Source of the DNA: Oligoflexales bacterium
Lineage (GTDB): Bacteria > Bdellovibrionota_B > Oligoflexia > Oligoflexales > RGVZ01
DNA: 64,000 nt
Direction of reading: 5' to 3'
Assembly (NCBI GenBank): GCA_947494335.1
Contig: CANLUT010000002.1
Coordinates: forward strand, 434,001 to 498,000
Part shown: piece after piece, positions 4,454 through 12,582 of the stretch
How positions within the stretch are numbered: the first letter of the stretch is position 1
How the letters are laid out: each line of letters begins with the position of its first letter
Program-made: the position numbers and the translations under genes
Notes under the pieces: model-generated
Told to the model about the DNA's origin: nothing
Seen by the model: the letters and a program-made list of their open reading frames with translations, nothing else
Databases searched by the model: none

Positions 4454-5074
4454 ATGGCAGAGCAGTGGCTATCCATCGTTGATTATGCGCGAGCGACCGG
4501 AATTTCGGATATGACGATTCGTCGTCGCATTCGAACTGGCCGCATCAGAGCCGAACTTCGTGATGGGAAGTACTATATCCCTGTTGATTTGAATGGACAG
4601 GAACAAGATCGCCGCTATGGCAATACAACCTCATCCAATTCAAATCAGGTCGTTAAAAACCATCCAAACCCTGATCGTTCGATGCGTAGCAATTTCCAAG
4701 AGCGTCCCATGCCTTACGTACGTCGCTCAGAAGAGTTGCACCACCATACGCAAGTCATGCCGAATCATGTGGGCCAAGCTCCCTCGAATTACTCAAATCG
4801 TCAGACGTTTAATAATCTGCCTGACAATATGGTGCGACCTTTGGTCGACGCTGGGCTTGCTAGCGTAGAAGCAAGATCTCTCATCGAGTTCTGCGACCGA
4901 GCCCTTGATCAGGCAAGATCTGCAGTAGAAGGCATTGAAGCTAAATATGCGGCCAAGATGGAGTCCATGTCAGCTCAGCTGATGAATCGTGACCAGGAGA
5001 TCAAATCTCTTAATCAGCAGATCGAAGATCTTCAGTTGCTGGTCCAAATTCTTGAGCGCAAAAAAATCGGCTAA
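4454..5074 (+). CDS. MerR/excisionase-like DNA-binding protein with coiled-coil tail
   Basis: This is a 206-residue protein of unknown target. Residues about 1-45 form a winged-helix of the excisionase/MerR type: WLSIVDYARATGISDMTIRR, then RRIRTGRIRAELRDGKYYIPV. A polar, Asn/Gln/Pro-rich linker follows, and residues about 150-206 form a strong heptad coiled coil ending in ILERKKIG, suggesting oligomerisation. The start at 4454 is chosen over ATG 4424 because GAGAGG lies nine bases upstream. Its stop overlaps the convergent queA stop by four bases. The full-length tail rules out a simple phage excisionase; a chromosomal regulator or nucleoid-type adaptor is more likely. Confidence 0.75.
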   Translation: MAEQWLSIVDYARATGISDMTIRRRIRTGRIRAELRDGKYYIPVDLNGQEQDRRYGNTTSSNSNQVVKNHPNPDRSMRSNFQERPMPYVRRSEELHHHTQVMPNHVGQAPSNYSNRQTFNNLPDNMVRPLVDAGLASVEARSLIEFCDRALDQARSAVEGIEAKYAAKMESMSAQLMNRDQEIKSLNQQIEDLQLLVQILERKKIG

Positions 5075-6174
5075 AGCCAGAGTAGACTGCTATCACCATA
5101 GCTAAAAAATCTGTATCCTTCGTCAACAGCTCTTCTGTAGATGCGGTGAGCGTTGTCATATCCAACGAGGGCACAGATGAGCATGAAAAGTGTGCTTTCT
5201 GGCTGGTGAAAATTGGTCATAAGAGCATCCGCGCACCAAGGCTTATGACGATCCTCTTTTGATTTAGGTCGGATAAAAATATCAGTTCTAAGCCATCTTC
5301 CAGCCAGCGTTTCAGGTTTAACGCCCTCATGTCGTGCCTGGTTCATTAAACCTTCCAAGCTTCTAAGGGCAGTTGTCCCAACTACAATGATGCGCCTATT
5401 TTCAGCTTGGGCGCGTTCAATGTCTCTTATGGTTTCACGTGGCACCATAAATCGCTCTGAGTGCATGACATGCTTTGCCGGATCATCAGCTTTCACGGGA
5501 AGAAATGTTCCTGCGCCCACGTGGAGGGTCACATGAGAAAACTGACAATTCTTCGCAGCAAGGTTTGCCATAATCTCTTTTGAGATGTGCAAACCTGCGG
5601 TTGGTGCCGCCACGGAGCCTGCGCCTTGGGCATAAACGGTCTGGTAGCGCTCTTTATCTTGAGCCTTCGTAGATTCCGTGCTGTCTTTGCGGGAAATATA
5701 GGGCGGCAGAGGCATTTCCCCGTGTTTATCGAGCCAACCTAGAAGGTCTTCTCCCGAAAGACTTAGCTCTACGGTAAAAGGTTGGGGGCCCGAGCTTTCA
5801 GTTGGACTTTCTTTGGTTATGGTGGCGGTCAGGCCAGCGTCAAAGTAAACTTTGGTACCTGTGCCGAGCTTTCGCATAGGTTTCCCCAAGGCAAGCCATG
5901 ACTCGCGTTTGTCTACGGAGGCTACGTCAGGTTCAAGCAAAAGTATTTCAACGGCGCCACCAGTGGCCAATTTTCCATGAAGACGACTAGCAATCACGCG
6001 GGAGTTGTTTACAATAATGAGCGAACACTCAGGTACGGCGTCGGCGAGGTTTTTGATTTGCGAGTGAATGATTTCATTTTTCTGCCAAATAAGAAGTCTC
6101 GAGCTATCACGCTGGCTCAGTGGATGTTGCGCCACCTGGGCTTCGGGAACTTCAAAGGAGAAGTCCTTAAGCAT
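5071..6174 (-). CDS. queA: tRNA preQ1(34) S-adenosylmethionine ribosyltransferase-isomerase
   Basis: QueA transfers and isomerises the ribosyl group of SAM to 7-aminomethyl-7-deazaguanine at tRNA wobble position 34, forming epoxyqueuosine. Family blocks are present: an N-terminal DFSFEVPEAQVAQHPL, then RDSSRLL, NNSRVIASRLHG, APTAGLHIS, THVTLHVGAGTF-like HVTLHVGAGTF, TTALRSLE, and MTNFHQPESTLFML near the C-terminus. The length of about 367 residues is usual. The start at 6174 is used because family members begin a few residues before the DF...LPE block; an in-frame start at 6210 would add 12 residues. No other queuosine gene is adjacent. Confidence 0.96.
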   Translation of the reverse strand: MLKDFSFEVPEAQVAQHPLSQRDSSRLLIWQKNEIIHSQIKNLADAVPECSLIIVNNSRVIASRLHGKLATGGAVEILLLEPDVASVDKRESWLALGKPMRKLGTGTKVYFDAGLTATITKESPTESSGPQPFTVELSLSGEDLLGWLDKHGEMPLPPYISRKDSTESTKAQDKERYQTVYAQGAGSVAAPTAGLHISKEIMANLAAKNCQFSHVTLHVGAGTFLPVKADDPAKHVMHSERFMVPRETIRDIERAQAENRRIIVVGTTALRSLEGLMNQARHEGVKPETLAGRWLRTDIFIRPKSKEDRHKPWCADALMTNFHQPESTLFMLICALVGYDNAHRIYRRAVDEGYRFFSYGDSSLLWL

Positions 6175-6189
6175 CAAGTAGTCGCCGGA

Positions 6190-7422
6190 ATGTTTAGTTT
6201 TTTCTGTCACCGATGGCCCCTTGCTCGAGGGGCGGTTTTTATCGAAATTTTAGTCAGTGGTCTATTTGTTTCGCATCCGCTGATCGCTAATCCAGATTAT
6301 TTGATTGCCAGAGATGTCCCTGCCATTATCGGCACTTCCCGGAAAAATTTGGTGGCCATCTTCAACGCCGGAACAATCGATAAGCCAGATTTTAGAATGC
6401 AAAAGCCGACCGTTGTGCCCGTTGGCGAGGACGGCAAGATCATTTGGTTTAAAAACGACGCCTGGAGGTCAGAGCCGATTATTGCCCGAGACCGCATTCT
6501 TATTGAGGAGGACATGCTCGGCCAGCCTGCCAAGGGTCGGTTTGCGCTCCAAGGGTGTACGCCAAAAAATGGAGCCTATTTTAAAAATAAACGAGGCACC
6601 ATGTGGCTCGCCTCATGTGATGAAACCGTAACGAAGAAGATTGATGATAAAACCAAGCGTGTGATTTATGACGAAGCCGGAGGTGCGATCAACTCGCGAT
6701 TCTACCGCTACCAGTTCAAGCCTGAAAACCAAATGCTTTTCAAGGAGGTCGCTCTCCGTGGGGATCAGGAGATGATTCTTGCCCGCGACAGTGATCTTTA
6801 CATTCGCTCAGATGTAAAAAATTTCTTTACGCTGAATTTTTCGTCAGCAGACATTGAAAGCAAAATGATGGATTATCGCATCGAGCCGCTGACCGCCCTC
6901 GCTTCTCTTGGCTTTTATTTGAAAGTTTTATTTTTCAAGCTGACTCTTGATCTGCGTACCGATGTGGCCTTTTTTGAAAGCTCAGCCAATATCCCCATGG
7001 TGATGACGCTACCGGTAAATGCAGCCAAAAGGTTAAATCCAAAGAGTGGAGTTCTTTACAGTTTTCAATTAGGGGATCGCATCACAAAAGAGTCACTTAA
7101 CGTGAATATGCCGGTTCTTAAATCAAACTCGATTTTTGGTGAGTACGCGGCTGAGGGGATTGCCTACTGCGGCGAGTATTGCCGCTATGACATGGTGCTG
7201 TCGTCATCTGGTAAAAGACTGAAACTTCAGATCGCCATGGCGCGCCATCTGGTCGAAAAAGGCTTTTTCCCGTGGTTTGTATCTGATGTGGAAGCCTTAC
7301 AAAAAGACATGGGCTGGTCACTACGAAGTGATCTTTCCATGAATCAGCGTGTAGGGATTTATTTTGAAGTGTCACGCCTTCCCAAGGGTAGTCACCCCTG
7401 GGATTTTTGGATTTCGTTTTAA
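6190..7422 (+). CDS. Exported protein of unknown function
   Basis: I do not recognise this family. ATG 6190 is chosen because it places a hydrophobic signal-like segment (FIEILVSGLFVSHPLIA) near the N-terminus and avoids 200 bases of overlap with the divergent queA gene. The mature part of about 380 residues is rich in charged residues and alternating strands, with one hydrophobic stretch (TALASLGFYLKVLFF) near residue 240. Cys pairs occur around ALQGCTP/ASCDE and YCGEYCRY and may form disulfides. The final residue is Phe, and the C-terminal half has beta-strand character, so an outer-membrane or periplasmic location is possible. It overlaps the convergent carboxypeptidase gene by four bases. 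Confidence 0.65.
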   Translation: MFSFFCHRWPLARGAVFIEILVSGLFVSHPLIANPDYLIARDVPAIIGTSRKNLVAIFNAGTIDKPDFRMQKPTVVPVGEDGKIIWFKNDAWRSEPIIARDRILIEEDMLGQPAKGRFALQGCTPKNGAYFKNKRGTMWLASCDETVTKKIDDKTKRVIYDEAGGAINSRFYRYQFKPENQMLFKEVALRGDQEMILARDSDLYIRSDVKNFFTLNFSSADIESKMMDYRIEPLTALASLGFYLKVLFFKLTLDLRTDVAFFESSANIPMVMTLPVNAAKRLNPKSGVLYSFQLGDRITKESLNVNMPVLKSNSIFGEYAAEGIAYCGEYCRYDMVLSSSGKRLKLQIAMARHLVEKGFFPWFVSDVEALQKDMGWSLRSDLSMNQRVGIYFEVSRLPKGSHPWDFWISF

Positions 7423-8546
7423 AGGGCGGGCTTCTTAGTGTCAGAAGACTCGTCATTAAACCGTGCAGTCTTGCGTCCGTAGGACTCAAGAAATAAGCTT
7501 GCACCTTTGGTGCGTGGTGCTGACGTGTTGACGAATGGATATTTAACCGCTTGCTCAAGACCCGGTGAGAACTGAGTCCAGTATTCAGATATTTTGTCGG
7601 GATTTGTTGTTTCTAGCTCTAGAGTCACAGTGGGGATGCCGCGCTCATTACCAGCATAATTGCCAAGACTTCCCGGGTAGAACGTGAAGTCGACAACTTT
7701 ATAGTTACGGCTATTGGCGCTCATGCTGCGAACAAGCATGCGGGCTTTTTCTTCAGAATCGGTCAAAGCACGAGGTTTTTGATCGCCTGGACCATCATAG
7801 TCATAAAACCCAAGCGGCGCGTGTACGGAAATAATTTTATCTGGCTTATAGGTGTCGATTAGCCAAATCTGGAATAGCGTCTCGATTTCGCTATTAGGGA
7901 TATGGCCCGGAAAGTGTCGTGGATTTTTCTCACGCTTTTCAGCCCACCAAGTCTTTGCGATGCCGTACCAGTCTTGCGTGAAGAAGTTACGGTTCAAGTC
8001 AACACCACGGCCGTTCGTACGACTTGCGCCGCGACGGAAAAAACCGTCTGGATTAACCAGTGGCGCAATAATGACGCGGCCGTTTTCTGGAATTAACTGA
8101 GGATTTGCCTGTAAATGATTGGCAAATTTAAATGTAATGGGGATCGGTGTCAGTTCGTCGGGGTGAACGCCGCCTAAAACGAGTGTCGTATTTGAACCAT
8201 GGCCAAACTCAGCATAGATGAGCGGGCTTCCAGCATGGCTCTTTAATTGGGAGCGCCAGTTAATGCCGCGATCACCGCAGCCTTCTATGGCAGGCTTCCA
8301 CTTAAACATCACATATGATTGTGCAATGCGGTCGCAGAAAGTTTTGACGTTTGCAGTTTCGGAGCCATAAGCCAAAACAAACTGCTGGAAATTATCTCTT
8401 AAAACAACAGGAAGGCTGATGAAGGCATCTTTCATCGCCTGGTCCGAAAAGCTCATATCGAGGGCAGCGGCCGTATTGGTCCACGCGCAAAAAGATAAAC
8501 TCAGCAGGGAGCTTAGTGATTTTGTGGTGAGATTAGTTAGGCGCAT
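7419..8546 (-). CDS. M14-family zinc carboxypeptidase, exported
   Basis: This is a metallocarboxypeptidase of 375 residues with a signal peptide (basic start, hydrophobic core, cleavage near TAAA). Zinc ligands are His128 and Glu131 in GGVHPDE and His242 in SVHAPLGF. The substrate-binding GVDLNRNF block is at 181-188, and the general base is Glu310 in TVTLELE. The family includes murein tripeptide amidases such as MpaA, and a role in trimming peptidoglycan peptides would suit the transglycosylase nearby, but the substrate is inferred only. Its start overlaps the end of the SprT-like gene by ten bases, so the two are probably one transcript. Confidence 0.9.
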   Translation of the reverse strand: MRLTNLTTKSLSSLLSLSFCAWTNTAAALDMSFSDQAMKDAFISLPVVLRDNFQQFVLAYGSETANVKTFCDRIAQSYVMFKWKPAIEGCGDRGINWRSQLKSHAGSPLIYAEFGHGSNTTLVLGGVHPDELTPIPITFKFANHLQANPQLIPENGRVIIAPLVNPDGFFRRGASRTNGRGVDLNRNFFTQDWYGIAKTWWAEKREKNPRHFPGHIPNSEIETLFQIWLIDTYKPDKIISVHAPLGFYDYDGPGDQKPRALTDSEEKARMLVRSMSANSRNYKVVDFTFYPGSLGNYAGNERGIPTVTLELETTNPDKISEYWTQFSPGLEQAVKYPFVNTSAPRTKGASLFLESYGRKTARFNDESSDTKKPAL

Positions 8547-9097
8547 TTTTCACTAGTCCCGTCTCTAAGGTTAAACAAAGTGTCTTTCAACGTGGCATAG
8601 TGCTCTATGCCTTCTTTCTTGTAACAGAAGGCACAGTATATGCTGTGGTCCAGCGCCTCTCTCAAATGCCAACGATTTTCACAGTTGCCGCAAATATATA
8701 CGTAAGTGCCTTCGGCCGCTAGTCTCGAATGCACGTGGACCTCTGGGTCTATCTGATATCCAGTTTGCTCAAACTCAGTCATTTTCTTATAGAATCGACG
8801 TGTATGACCTGGGTCAAAGCCGCAGTGGTAGAGCCATAAATGCGTCATTTCATGGAAGATCGTGTAGGGGAGAAACTGTGGATTTTCCGCGAAATAATTC
8901 ACAGAAAGCCTAATTTTGTTCTCAAACATCATGGCAAGACCCACTTTGTGTTTCATGCGTCTAGAAAATTCGATGGTCGTGCCTGCGCGCAAACTTCCCT
9001 CCGGCTGGCCAACAAAGCGTGGCAAAAATAGCTCGTAGAAGTAATCGGCAAGAAGCTCGAGATCTTCTTTATCAAATTTTAGTGAGTTCAAGGTCAT
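8537..9097 (-). CDS. SprT-like zinc metalloprotein
   Basis: This is a 186-residue SprT-domain protein. The zinc-protease motif HEMTH is at residues 82-86 within YTIFHEMTHLWLYHCG, with a likely third ligand His98 in PGHTRRF. A C-terminal zinc ribbon has Cys135-x2-Cys138 and Cys154-x2-Cys157. This matches bacterial SprT and the catalytic domain of eukaryotic Spartan; the bacterial role is not well defined. It is transcribed with the M14 carboxypeptidase downstream and lies 25 bases after the LuxE-LuxC-like gene on the same strand. Confidence 0.88.
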   Translation of the reverse strand: MTLNSLKFDKEDLELLADYFYELFLPRFVGQPEGSLRAGTTIEFSRRMKHKVGLAMMFENKIRLSVNYFAENPQFLPYTIFHEMTHLWLYHCGFDPGHTRRFYKKMTEFEQTGYQIDPEVHVHSRLAAEGTYVYICGNCENRWHLREALDHSIYCAFCYKKEGIEHYATLKDTLFNLRDGTSEKCA

Positions 9098-9122: not shown

Positions 9123-11459
9123 CTAAGTCGCAAAAAATGGACGACCTAAATGATGTCCGTCAAGGCTTGGCGCCCCAAGGGTTCCAAGCCTAACTAACCG
9201 AACATCGTTGACTAATTTTGGATAAGTTTTGGTCTTTGATAATGCTTTAGAAATTTCATCACTGACAGAAAGTGCTTTTAGAGAGGAAATCTTTAAAAGT
9301 TCGGTAATGATTAGATTTTTATCTGTGATTTCATCAACTAACAGTATCGGAATGACAAAATCAAGGGTGCTGACGGCATTTTGAATTTCCTTACCGAGCG
9401 AATTTGAAGCGACATTTTTAATGGCGACCGTTACGCCGTCGGCTGGCGTAAAAACCTCAAATCCATGTGCCGTGAGGCGTCCTATTTCCATGCTACGTGC
9501 TGTCTTTGACGCAATGGATTCCTCGCGAGAAGAGATGAGACCAGCTGTTGTCATTGCATCTTTTACGATTTCGATACTTCCACCAATTGTGATGATAGCT
9601 CTCGATGACAGACAGCCTCTTTGACCAAGAGACAATTGATCGGCAAGTATTTGATGACGGGTGACTGAATCTTGAAAATCTCGTTCAGTGACCATGCTCA
9701 TACTGGTGACGTTGCCGAAGGTCGAGGCGCGATTATTGGAGAACTCTCGAACAAAAAGGCAGGTCTCATCATCTCCAAAAATAAGTATGGACTCGCCGTC
9801 AAGCAAATCATTTGGCCCAAGTCGCCACGACGAAGGCAGAGTTTTGATGTCAAAACCGTCAGCTTTTGCAAGATCAATAGCTCTTTGTAAAAAGGAAGCA
9901 TCAGGAGACATCTGGTTAATACTCGGACAACGAATGCGAATGGAAAGTCCGAGAGTCAATGCGCAGCAAATTGGATAAATCACGGCAATCGAGTGGCTGG
10001 CCGGTGGAATGATGAGCCAGTTTTTTGCCGCCTGACCCTGACCAATGGACGCTAGGGCTGCATCCGCAAACCCTTGGGCGTCAGATGGTATGCCGGCCGT
10101 GAGATCAGTCACAGCTTTGCGCGCAATCACCGCGTCACCAAACTCTAGGACAAGCCGTCTATGGGCCTCTGCATCAGACAAAAGATTTAAAAGCCAACGT
10201 CGCACAACGGGAGCTCGCGCAGAGAGGTCTTTGACATTAGGCTTGTAAAAGTTTTCTGCAGCCTTTGACTTGGTGCGACTCGGGATTTTTTCTGCGCCCT
10301 TTACACTCTCCACGTTAAGTGAGCATCCCTTCAGTGGCGCCGTCGGAACGCGCCCTAAAAGAGTAAATGATTGGTCAGTATTTAGTTGCGCCAAGTCTTC
10401 CGTTTGTAATGCTAAGCCTGGCAGATCAGTGCGCAAAGGATCAAAGATGGTGAGAGCTCCGACGCCTGATTGATCAGAGGCGTCTGGTTTTGACATCACT
10501 GCTATATTCACCCACCACGGGAAGCGAAAGACTCTTGCATTGAGATCTGTCGAGATTTTTTTCGGTGTGTCCCATGCCTGCGCGGCGAGTTCACACATGC
10601 CGTATTCGCTGACGATGTCGACGTGCTCAAGTCCAAACCCGCGACTGATCATGTCGTAAAGTTCAGGGCGTGTGACAGACCTGCTTTTACCTTTGGTCCC
10701 GCCTGTTTCAATGACGATACTTCCCTCAGGAAGTTTGACCTGAAATTTTTGGTCATCAAAAAGATTTACGAAGTGAAATCCGGTACCCCAAATGACCACG
10801 GGTACATTGGACTGAGCCAGGGCTTGGAGTTGCTCTTTGGCGGCGCTTAAGTTTTCAGCATGAGCGTAGGTCGTTGGCCAAAACTTCGCAAACCAGGCAA
10901 GCATCTGGGAAAGGCTTGAGTCCGGCCAGACGTCTGGGGGTGGAATTAGGCTAAAAATTGGCCTGTCTAAAAAATTTGCAGAAAACGGCTGGGCGCGGGT
11001 TTCAAGGGCGCTTAAATAGGCCGCGATGCTTTCAGCCCTATAAAACAGCAGTCCCTCGTGACTAAAAACTGACCTTGAACGCCGCTCAGGGCCTGATGTT
11101 GTGCCGCTGGACAGGAATATCCTCAGCTTTTCCACAGGAGCCCAAACCCGCTCTGCATCTGCTCTAAAAGCTCTCATCGGTATAAATTCAGGCACCCCAA
11201 GATGGCTGTCAACCATCGGTAAACTGGGCGTTTCACGGTATCGCTGGCGGCTGGGGAAAACTTTTAAAAGTGCCTCCAGGTCTTGAACAGTGGGCCTTTC
11301 AAAGACATTTTTTGCTAGTTTTCCACAAGGCTCTTCAAGGTTATCTACAGGTGATCTTGTCATGAGCAGGTGCAAAAAATCAGCAATCTCTGGGTCCATT
11401 TGGCAAATGGTCGCCGCAGCTTTTGATAAACCTGATGATTGGTGATTCGAATCTTGCAT
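9123..11459 (-). CDS. LuxE-type acyl-protein synthetase fused to LuxC-type acyl reductase
   Basis: This is a 778-residue two-domain protein. The N-terminal half resembles LuxE acyl-protein synthetase: the adenylate-forming P-loop FLSSGTTSG is at 115-123, followed by IETGGTKGKSR and DIVSEYGMCELAAQ. The C-terminal half, from about residue 410, resembles LuxC acyl-CoA reductase: a dinucleotide-fold stretch, ILIFGDDET, a STFGNVTSMS segment, and LADQLSLGQRGCLSSR with the candidate nucleophile Cys616. In luminous bacteria the two activities are separate chains that turn fatty acid into aldehyde via acyl-AMP and thioester. No luxAB or other lux gene is nearby, so a role in aldehyde, alcohol or lipid synthesis is inferred. 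The sprT gene starts 25 bases downstream. Confidence 0.75.
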   Translation of the reverse strand: MQDSNHQSSGLSKAAATICQMDPEIADFLHLLMTRSPVDNLEEPCGKLAKNVFERPTVQDLEALLKVFPSRQRYRETPSLPMVDSHLGVPEFIPMRAFRADAERVWAPVEKLRIFLSSGTTSGPERRSRSVFSHEGLLFYRAESIAAYLSALETRAQPFSANFLDRPIFSLIPPPDVWPDSSLSQMLAWFAKFWPTTYAHAENLSAAKEQLQALAQSNVPVVIWGTGFHFVNLFDDQKFQVKLPEGSIVIETGGTKGKSRSVTRPELYDMISRGFGLEHVDIVSEYGMCELAAQAWDTPKKISTDLNARVFRFPWWVNIAVMSKPDASDQSGVGALTIFDPLRTDLPGLALQTEDLAQLNTDQSFTLLGRVPTAPLKGCSLNVESVKGAEKIPSRTKSKAAENFYKPNVKDLSARAPVVRRWLLNLLSDAEAHRRLVLEFGDAVIARKAVTDLTAGIPSDAQGFADAALASIGQGQAAKNWLIIPPASHSIAVIYPICCALTLGLSIRIRCPSINQMSPDASFLQRAIDLAKADGFDIKTLPSSWRLGPNDLLDGESILIFGDDETCLFVREFSNNRASTFGNVTSMSMVTERDFQDSVTRHQILADQLSLGQRGCLSSRAIITIGGSIEIVKDAMTTAGLISSREESIASKTARSMEIGRLTAHGFEVFTPADGVTVAIKNVASNSLGKEIQNAVSTLDFVIPILLVDEITDKNLIITELLKISSLKALSVSDEISKALSKTKTYPKLVNDVRLVRLGTLGAPSLDGHHLGRPFFAT

Positions 11460-11613: not shown

Positions 11614-12582
11614 ATGTCTTCTGAGTATTTCGTCAAGCTTGATCGTTTTGAAGGCCCGTTGGATCTTCTCCTGCACCTTATTCGTGTGCACGAGATCGAC
11701 ATCTTTGCAATCGACATCTTCAAGCTCACCACTGAATACTTAGGCTACCTGCGCCTTGTAAAATTTGATGACATCTCTGAAGCTGGTGAATTTGTGGCCA
11801 TGGGTGCCACATTAATTGAAATCAAAAGCCGAAGCCTTCTGCCTACAGAAGAGCGTAAGACTCTAAACGAAGACGGCGAAGAAGAAGATCCTCTAAAAAC
11901 TCTCCAAGACCGCTTGCTGCAATATGAAATGATTCGTCGCGCGGCAGAATGGTTCTCTCAATGTCCGCAGATGGGTGTTGAGATTCAAACTGGTCATGAG
12001 CATGAGCGCCTAGCGGAAGTATTCAAAGACGTCGAGACGCCACTCACGGGAGATCCTGCGCGTCTTATTATATTGTACGATCAGATTATGCGTGATCTTG
12101 CTGATCGCAAGGCAGCCAAGATTGAAGCCAAAACTCACGGCATTACACTTGAACAAACCATCGAGCGATTTGGTTCCTATATTGAAACCGTTCGATTTGG
12201 CATGTTCCAAGGTCTCTACAATAAATTTAGAAGCCGTTACGACATGGTCGTTCACTTGATGGCGGTCTTGGAACTTTCTAAGCAACAAAAACTTAAAATT
12301 TATCAGCAAGACATGATGGGACCACTGTGGTTTTACCGCGGTGACTTGGATGAAAGTATTTTGCCTGTGGCAAGCCCAACCATCATGCACGATGCCACAA
12401 CAGATGCTGTAGTGATTGAGGCCACTGGCGAGTCAGTAGCGGAGATCACGACAGGTGACGTTGTAATTGCAGAACTTCCAGAGGGCCCTCTGATGCCGCC
12501 GCCGGCAGAAGAGGCACCAACTCTTGAACTATCGTCTGATGAAGCACAGACCAATTCCGAAACAGCGGAGGTAGATCAATGA
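11614..12582 (+). CDS. scpA: Segregation and condensation protein A (kleisin)
   Basis: ScpA is the kleisin subunit that bridges SMC heads in the bacterial condensin complex. The N-terminal signature FEGPLDLLLHLIRVHEIDI is intact, followed by YLGYLRLVKFDDISEAGEFV and ATLIEIKSRSLLP. The winged-helix C-terminal part (VVHLMAVLELSKQQKLKIYQ) is followed by an acidic, Pro/Glu-rich tail of roughly 60 residues not found in compact ScpA proteins. At 322 residues it is longer than the usual 240-270. ATGA overlap with scpB shows translational coupling. An intergenic stretch of about 150 bases upstream presumably holds the promoter. Confidence 0.95.
   Translation: MSSEYFVKLDRFEGPLDLLLHLIRVHEIDIFAIDIFKLTTEYLGYLRLVKFDDISEAGEFVAMGATLIEIKSRSLLPTEERKTLNEDGEEEDPLKTLQDRLLQYEMIRRAAEWFSQCPQMGVEIQTGHEHERLAEVFKDVETPLTGDPARLIILYDQIMRDLADRKAAKIEAKTHGITLEQTIERFGSYIETVRFGMFQGLYNKFRSRYDMVVHLMAVLELSKQQKLKIYQQDMMGPLWFYRGDLDESILPVASPTIMHDATTDAVVIEATGESVAEITTGDVVIAELPEGPLMPPPAEEAPTLELSSDEAQTNSETAEVDQ

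Follow-up and report, generated by a model that had tools for sequence, protein, structure and literature searches.

The closest described relative of the protein reported here is the LuxE-LuxC fatty acid reductase complex of Photobacterium phosphoreum (7xc6), with which it shares both folds, the ATP loop, the cysteine of the KGCSL motif and the cysteine of LuxC. A second point of comparison is carboxylic acid reductase (CAR; A-PCP-R), which converts an acid to an aldehyde in a single chain through adenylation, thioester formation and reduction, and relies for this on a phosphopantetheine arm together with a reductase of the SDR type. The fusion is likewise predicted to be a single-chain acid reductase, but with a cysteine relay and a reductase of the aldehyde dehydrogenase (ALDH) type.

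Queuosine is a widespread modification of the tRNA wobble base, which animals obtain from bacteria, and its synthesis from 7-carboxy-7-deazaguanine (CDG) is taught as the action of QueC followed by QueF. The canonical route runs from GTP to H2NTP (FolE), CPH4 (QueD), CDG (QueE), preQ0 (QueC) and preQ1 (QueF), and is completed by Tgt, QueA and QueG or QueH (PMC5372724). The QueG/QueH pair is an instance of non-orthologous replacement within queuosine synthesis, in which an unrelated enzyme performs one step (PMC5372724).

The window protein differs from the P. phosphoreum complex in that it is one chain, belongs to a separate clade, has no lux genes around it and is linked to queuosine genes; its predicted substrate is a 7-deazaguanine carboxylate instead of a fatty acid. 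The homology, the catalytic residues and the genomic context described below make it quite probable that the fusion reduces CDG at the expense of ATP and NADPH, and that an aminotransferase turns its product into preQ1, bypassing QueC and QueF. Such a route would share with QueC and QueF the starting compound CDG, the end product preQ1 and the requirement for ATP and a reductant. QueC and QueF have no sequence relation to LuxE-LuxC, however, and their occurrence is mutually exclusive with it; they proceed through an amide and a nitrile and then reduce the nitrile, whereas the predicted LuxE-LuxC route uses an aldehyde and transamination. In contrast with the QueG/QueH case, where the last step is swapped, two earlier steps would here be replaced jointly, by way of a new predicted intermediate. 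No earlier report tying LuxE to queuosine or to the replacement of QueF was found in the open-access papers searched, bioRxiv preprints not included; since the search covered open-access papers only, such a report may exist elsewhere.

The fused protein and its catalytic residues

The window, that is, the whole stretch of 64,000 nucleotides analysed, encodes the fusion on the minus strand in one open ORF (9123-11459), with the ATG at 11459, 778 codons at 9126-11459 and the stop codon at 9123-9125. This agrees with a sequence-only reading of the window, which had proposed a single 778-residue chain with a LuxE-like and a LuxC-like part. The LuxE-like adenylating half (residues 1-400; 10260-11459, minus strand) has the fold of PaaK/benzoate-type AMP ligases, and the LuxC-like thioester reductase half (residues 425-778; 9126-10187, minus strand) has the ALDH fold. 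Relatives were needed to assign both halves, because the single window sequence matched no Pfam family, including the PF04443 and PF05893 named in that reading, gave nothing useful against NCBIfam and matched no PDB chain. The two families do appear among 44 aligned fusion relatives, PF04443 (LuxE) in 13 and PF05893 (LuxC) in 15, and stand-alone LuxE relatives encoded by separate genes match PF04443 clearly over the cut-off. Profile searches of the PDB recovered 7xc6 LuxE (7xc6_E) at 1.8e-10 with the whole-protein profile and at 5.4e-37 with a profile of the stand-alone relatives, and 7xc6 LuxC at 0.0074.

The AlphaFold model of the fusion (pLDDT 88, pTM 0.87) has the LuxC chain 7xc6_A as its top PDB match in Foldseek (5.5e-9). 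When the N-terminal half is modelled alone, the closest folds are PaaK-type and aryl-acid AMP ligases, several of them for aromatic acids, a ranking that is no proof of the substrate.

The motifs pointed out earlier are all present: the ATP loop SSGTT (residues 117-121; 11097-11111), the adenylate-forming motif SEYGMCE (residues 284-290; 10590-10610) and LGQRGCLSS, which holds the LuxC-type catalytic Cys616 (9612-9614), each on the minus strand. Alignment of the 44 relatives shows no loss of the ATP loop or the catalytic cysteine. Invariant residues comprise S117, S118 and G119; T252, G253, G254 and K256 (TGGxK); S284, E285, Y286 and E290; D355 and R370; and the pairs G378-C379 and G615-C616. 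Cys379 (10323-10325, minus strand) is a further invariant cysteine, absent from the earlier account, and is conserved without exception in the 44 fused and 18 separate LuxE proteins. It lies within KGCSL, a motif found near the C-terminus of LuxE in 7xc6, where it marks the acyl carrier, and C616 aligns with the cysteine of LuxC in 'QQAC'. Residues 385-390, which follow C379, are of low confidence in the full-length model, which would fit a C379 carried on a mobile arm. An acyl relay between the two halves, as in 7xc6, is likely. At the position of the ALDH-type Asn the window protein has Ser, and this position is variable across the family.

The gene lies outside any lux operon, as had been claimed: Pfam searches of the adjacent genes, and a reading of the window's ORFs, revealed no luxA/luxB luciferase and no luxD. 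The fusion is related to LuxE-LuxC and probably works like them, yet is no member of a luminescence system, and its predicted role is new.

Distribution of the family and linkage to queuosine genes

The comparison covered about 130 genomes, made up of a set of 96 and 40 further luxE-positive genomes from other phyla. A scan of contigs with the single sequence found no relative; an alignment-based scan succeeded. A search of the 96 genomes detected the LuxEC protein in 55 at E <= 0.001, clearly in 54. Throughout Oligoflexales, the order to which the source genome belongs, and throughout its class, one ORF of ~640-870 aa carries both halves, with few split cases, and in Verrucomicrobiota, Armatimonadota, Eremiobacterota and others the halves are two separate genes, mostly adjacent or overlapping. 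The Oligoflexia fusions and the separate-gene relatives form one clade in the LuxE tree, apart from four canonical LuxE (100% SH-aLRT). Most simply, the fusion arose in the Oligoflexia line, was later split again in genomes G008 and G034, and originated separately in a planctomycete (L166).

The halves of the former fusion are on different contigs in G034 (L043 and L044) and are overlapping ORFs in G008 (L045), where a frameshift could be the cause. The independent LuxE-LuxC fusion is found at L166:5722-8244, in a Phycisphaerae genome. Five genomes (G001, G004, G006, G007 and G013; L071-L075, L083-L087) have, besides the fusion, a canonical LuxE adjoining LuxC. The LuxC ORF of this pair measures ~845-929 aa in G001, G004, G006 and G007, and the two that were read, those of G001 and G006, have a second AMP-ligase-like domain. 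The extra pair is possibly a different system that is truly fatty-acid-related.

The immediate neighbours in the window are a sprT-like gene (8537-9097, minus strand; PF10263) and an M14 carboxypeptidase-like gene (7419-8546, minus strand; PF00246), neither with a proposed role, and the divergent scpA (11614-12582, plus strand; PF02616). The order sprT, M14, luxEC and divergent scpA-scpB-rluB is common to most Oligoflexales families, so luxEC is an old resident of the order and no recent arrival. The sequence-only reading held that the neighbours do not explain the fusion. This is wrong because queA (tRNA preQ1(34) S-adenosylmethionine ribosyltransferase-isomerase; 5071-6210, minus strand; PF02547 at 2.1e-106, NCBIfam QueA 370.7 bits, over cut-off) lies a few genes from the fusion and is immediately beside it in four Oligoflexales loci (L046, L058, L061 and L066). 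The product of queA would act on the proposed end product preQ1 after Tgt. A conserved ORF of 481 aa without a Pfam match (5977-7422) sits between queA and the M14 gene, as in many relatives. Elsewhere in the window, ORF translations reveal a large polysaccharide biosynthesis island (24300-61300) of nucleotide-sugar enzymes, glycosyltransferases, an ABC exporter and flippase- or polymerase-like ORFs.

Other phyla display more direct links, as seen by clustering the neighbours of the non-Oligoflexia loci. A small gene follows luxC in 20 loci, Verrucomicrobiota included, and the arrangement is read as luxE-luxC-queD: NCBIfam classed the one member searched as QueD, with a score over the cut-off, and PF01242 matched the two members searched with Pfam. 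A class-III aminotransferase is found near luxE-luxC in ten loci, with the order luxE-luxC-aminotransferase in Eremiobacterota. A QueE motif search located queE beside the class-III aminotransferase in L153, L156, L160 and L173. In L160, queE (confirmed by NCBIfam), the aminotransferase, luxE and luxC are co-directional, and in L153, L156 and L173 the four genes are near one another. No preQ1 riboswitch reached the gathering score in the loci tested.

The source genome itself contains FolE, a QueD candidate, QueE and QueA; QueC and QueF were not found in it. Its QueE (G000:C2:392110-392745) is detected at 4.6e-84 with an NCBIfam QueE score of 285.5 bits, and QueE is present in most luxEC-positive relatives. 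A class-III aminotransferase (G000:C2:392721-393977) overlaps queE and lies directly behind it. The aminotransferase was sought across Oligoflexales with a profile built from the operonic set of other phyla, and the best match lies directly behind queE, within 50 bases, in 31 of the 34 Oligoflexales genomes with an A3-type QueE. The exceptions are G028 and G037, both of which have QueC and QueF, and a third genome with the two genes on different contigs. Since adjacency to queE played no part in choosing the aminotransferase, this placement bears out the hypothesis independently. The operonic and Oligoflexia aminotransferases cluster away from 15 paralogues (96% SH-aLRT). Silvanigrellales have luxEC and the aminotransferase, the latter not adjoining queE.

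The QueD candidate of the source genome is an unusual double PTPS protein of 322 aa (L213:9496-10461, contig C4), which scores 49.6 bits with TIGR03367, below the cut-off of 89.25. Its double PTPS/QueD-like homologues are widespread in Oligoflexia and stand beside queE in Silvanigrellales. Canonical PTPS matches that adjoin an SDR were not taken for QueD, being possible pterin genes.

Mutual exclusion with QueC and QueF

If LuxE-LuxC and the aminotransferase make preQ1, their carriers should dispense with QueC and QueF, yet keep QueE and QueA. Among the 96 genomes, strong QueF occurs in none of the 54 luxE-positive genomes versus 23 of the 42 luxE-negative ones (Fisher ~5e-11), and strong QueC in one versus 26 (Fisher ~2e-11), P values that overstate independence because the genomes counted are related. 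The 40 further luxE-positive genomes of other phyla include none with QueC and one with QueF. The two exceptions are both draft genomes: G054, which is luxEC-positive with a QueC match at 1.2e-37, and G102, which is luxE-positive with a QueF match at 1.2e-20.

The exclusion also holds at short evolutionary range. Exactly three Oligoflexales genomes have QueC and QueF (G026, G028 and G037), and all three are without luxEC. They belong to a single family (f11), the other members of which (G031, G034, G040 and G042) carry luxEC and neither QueC nor QueF. The fourth Oligoflexales genome without luxEC, G022, is also without QueC, QueF and QueE.

Weak matches in luxEC-positive genomes were rejected as real QueF or QueC. 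Those to QueF are at ~1e-5; the one in the source genome is its FolE, and the others have a FolE-like length and an identical partial span of the profile. The weak QueC matches have partial profile coverage or a marginal score.

A predicted route from CDG to preQ1

Adenylation, thioester formation and reduction are the known chemistry of LuxE-LuxC, and class-III aminotransferases are the usual enzymes for converting an aldehyde to an amine. Applied to queuosine synthesis, this chemistry would begin with CDG, the product of QueE, whose carboxylate the LuxE half would adenylate to CDG-AMP. C379 would then take over the CDG acyl group from CDG-AMP as a thioester and hand it on to C616 in the LuxC half, again as a thioester, and reduction there with NAD(P)H would release it as 7-formyl-7-deazaguanine. 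The class-III, PLP-dependent aminotransferase would aminate this aldehyde, and the resulting preQ1 would go on to Tgt and QueA. Because LuxE-LuxC and the aminotransferase would reach preQ1 from CDG, they would replace both QueC (CDG to preQ0) and QueF (preQ0 to preQ1). The homology, catalytic residues, operon links, exclusion pattern and the presence of QueE and QueA are observed, and from them we infer the chemistry after CDG, namely the substrate, the aldehyde intermediate, the reductant and the order of events. Several observations weigh against the scheme: the window sequence by itself matches neither Pfam family, the QueD candidate is unusual, the aminotransferase of Silvanigrellales stands apart from queE, G054 and G102 break the exclusion, the ALDH-type Asn is replaced by Ser, and the loci tested yielded no preQ1 riboswitch. 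The wider claim, that several phyla possess a second, independent route to preQ1 through a LuxE-LuxC aldehyde and transamination, without preQ0, QueC or QueF, is likely, though put a little more cautiously than the function of the fusion.

The alternative that survives best keeps the role in queuosine synthesis and changes the chemistry: the acyl-enzyme could, for instance, be aminated directly to an amide or imine, or the aminotransferase could serve as a source of ammonia. All of the genomic evidence is common to both schemes, as the linkage of genes cannot tell in which order the steps take place. The LuxC half, however, retains the reductase cysteine and the ALDH fold, and turning an aldehyde into an amine is what class-III aminotransferases generally do, which makes the alternative chemistry unlikely.

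A fused fatty acid reductase whose long-chain aldehyde would go into a lipid or signal is very unlikely, although the homologous LuxE and LuxC have a fatty acyl group as their known substrate and no luciferase operon would be required. The consistent links are to queD, queE, queA and the aminotransferase and not to any lipid gene, and a fatty aldehyde offers no reason for, nor predicts, the mutual exclusion with QueC and QueF. The clade is moreover separate from canonical LuxE (100% SH-aLRT), and some relatives retain an additional canonical LuxE/LuxC pair. The sequence-only reading had the fusion channel an acyl-enzyme to a fatty aldehyde, with a new lipid or signal as the product. Channelling to an aldehyde probably stands, but the fatty nature of that aldehyde does not, the linked genes being those of queuosine; a lipid or signal product is likewise disfavoured, as no lipid gene is consistently linked and the exclusion of QueC and QueF points to queuosine.

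Least probable of all is that preQ1 or queuine is salvaged from outside, with LuxE-LuxC in an unrelated role and an accidental link to queuosine: bacteria without queD, queE and queC are known to salvage, but the salvagers described lack queD/queE (PMC5372724), whereas the luxEC-positive genomes here retain queE, and linkage to queuosine genes is seen in Oligoflexia, Verrucomicrobiota and Eremiobacterota alike, in differing gene orders, so that the accident would have to be repeated.

Reduction of CDG by LuxE-LuxC, if true, would explain queuosine synthesis in genomes that have QueE and QueA and are without QueC or QueF. It would assign a function to a family whose only present annotation is LuxE/LuxC-like or acyl-CoA reductase; the reach of the Lux-type acid reductase would extend from lipids into nucleobase chemistry. 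It also cautions against labelling such genomes as salvagers or as makers of fatty aldehyde.

One locus contains a further small gene. An ORF of ~105 aa (L040:9441-9728, minus strand) lies between the aminotransferase and luxE and has a weak match to the tunnelling fold of QueF/FolE; it may be a base-binding helper.
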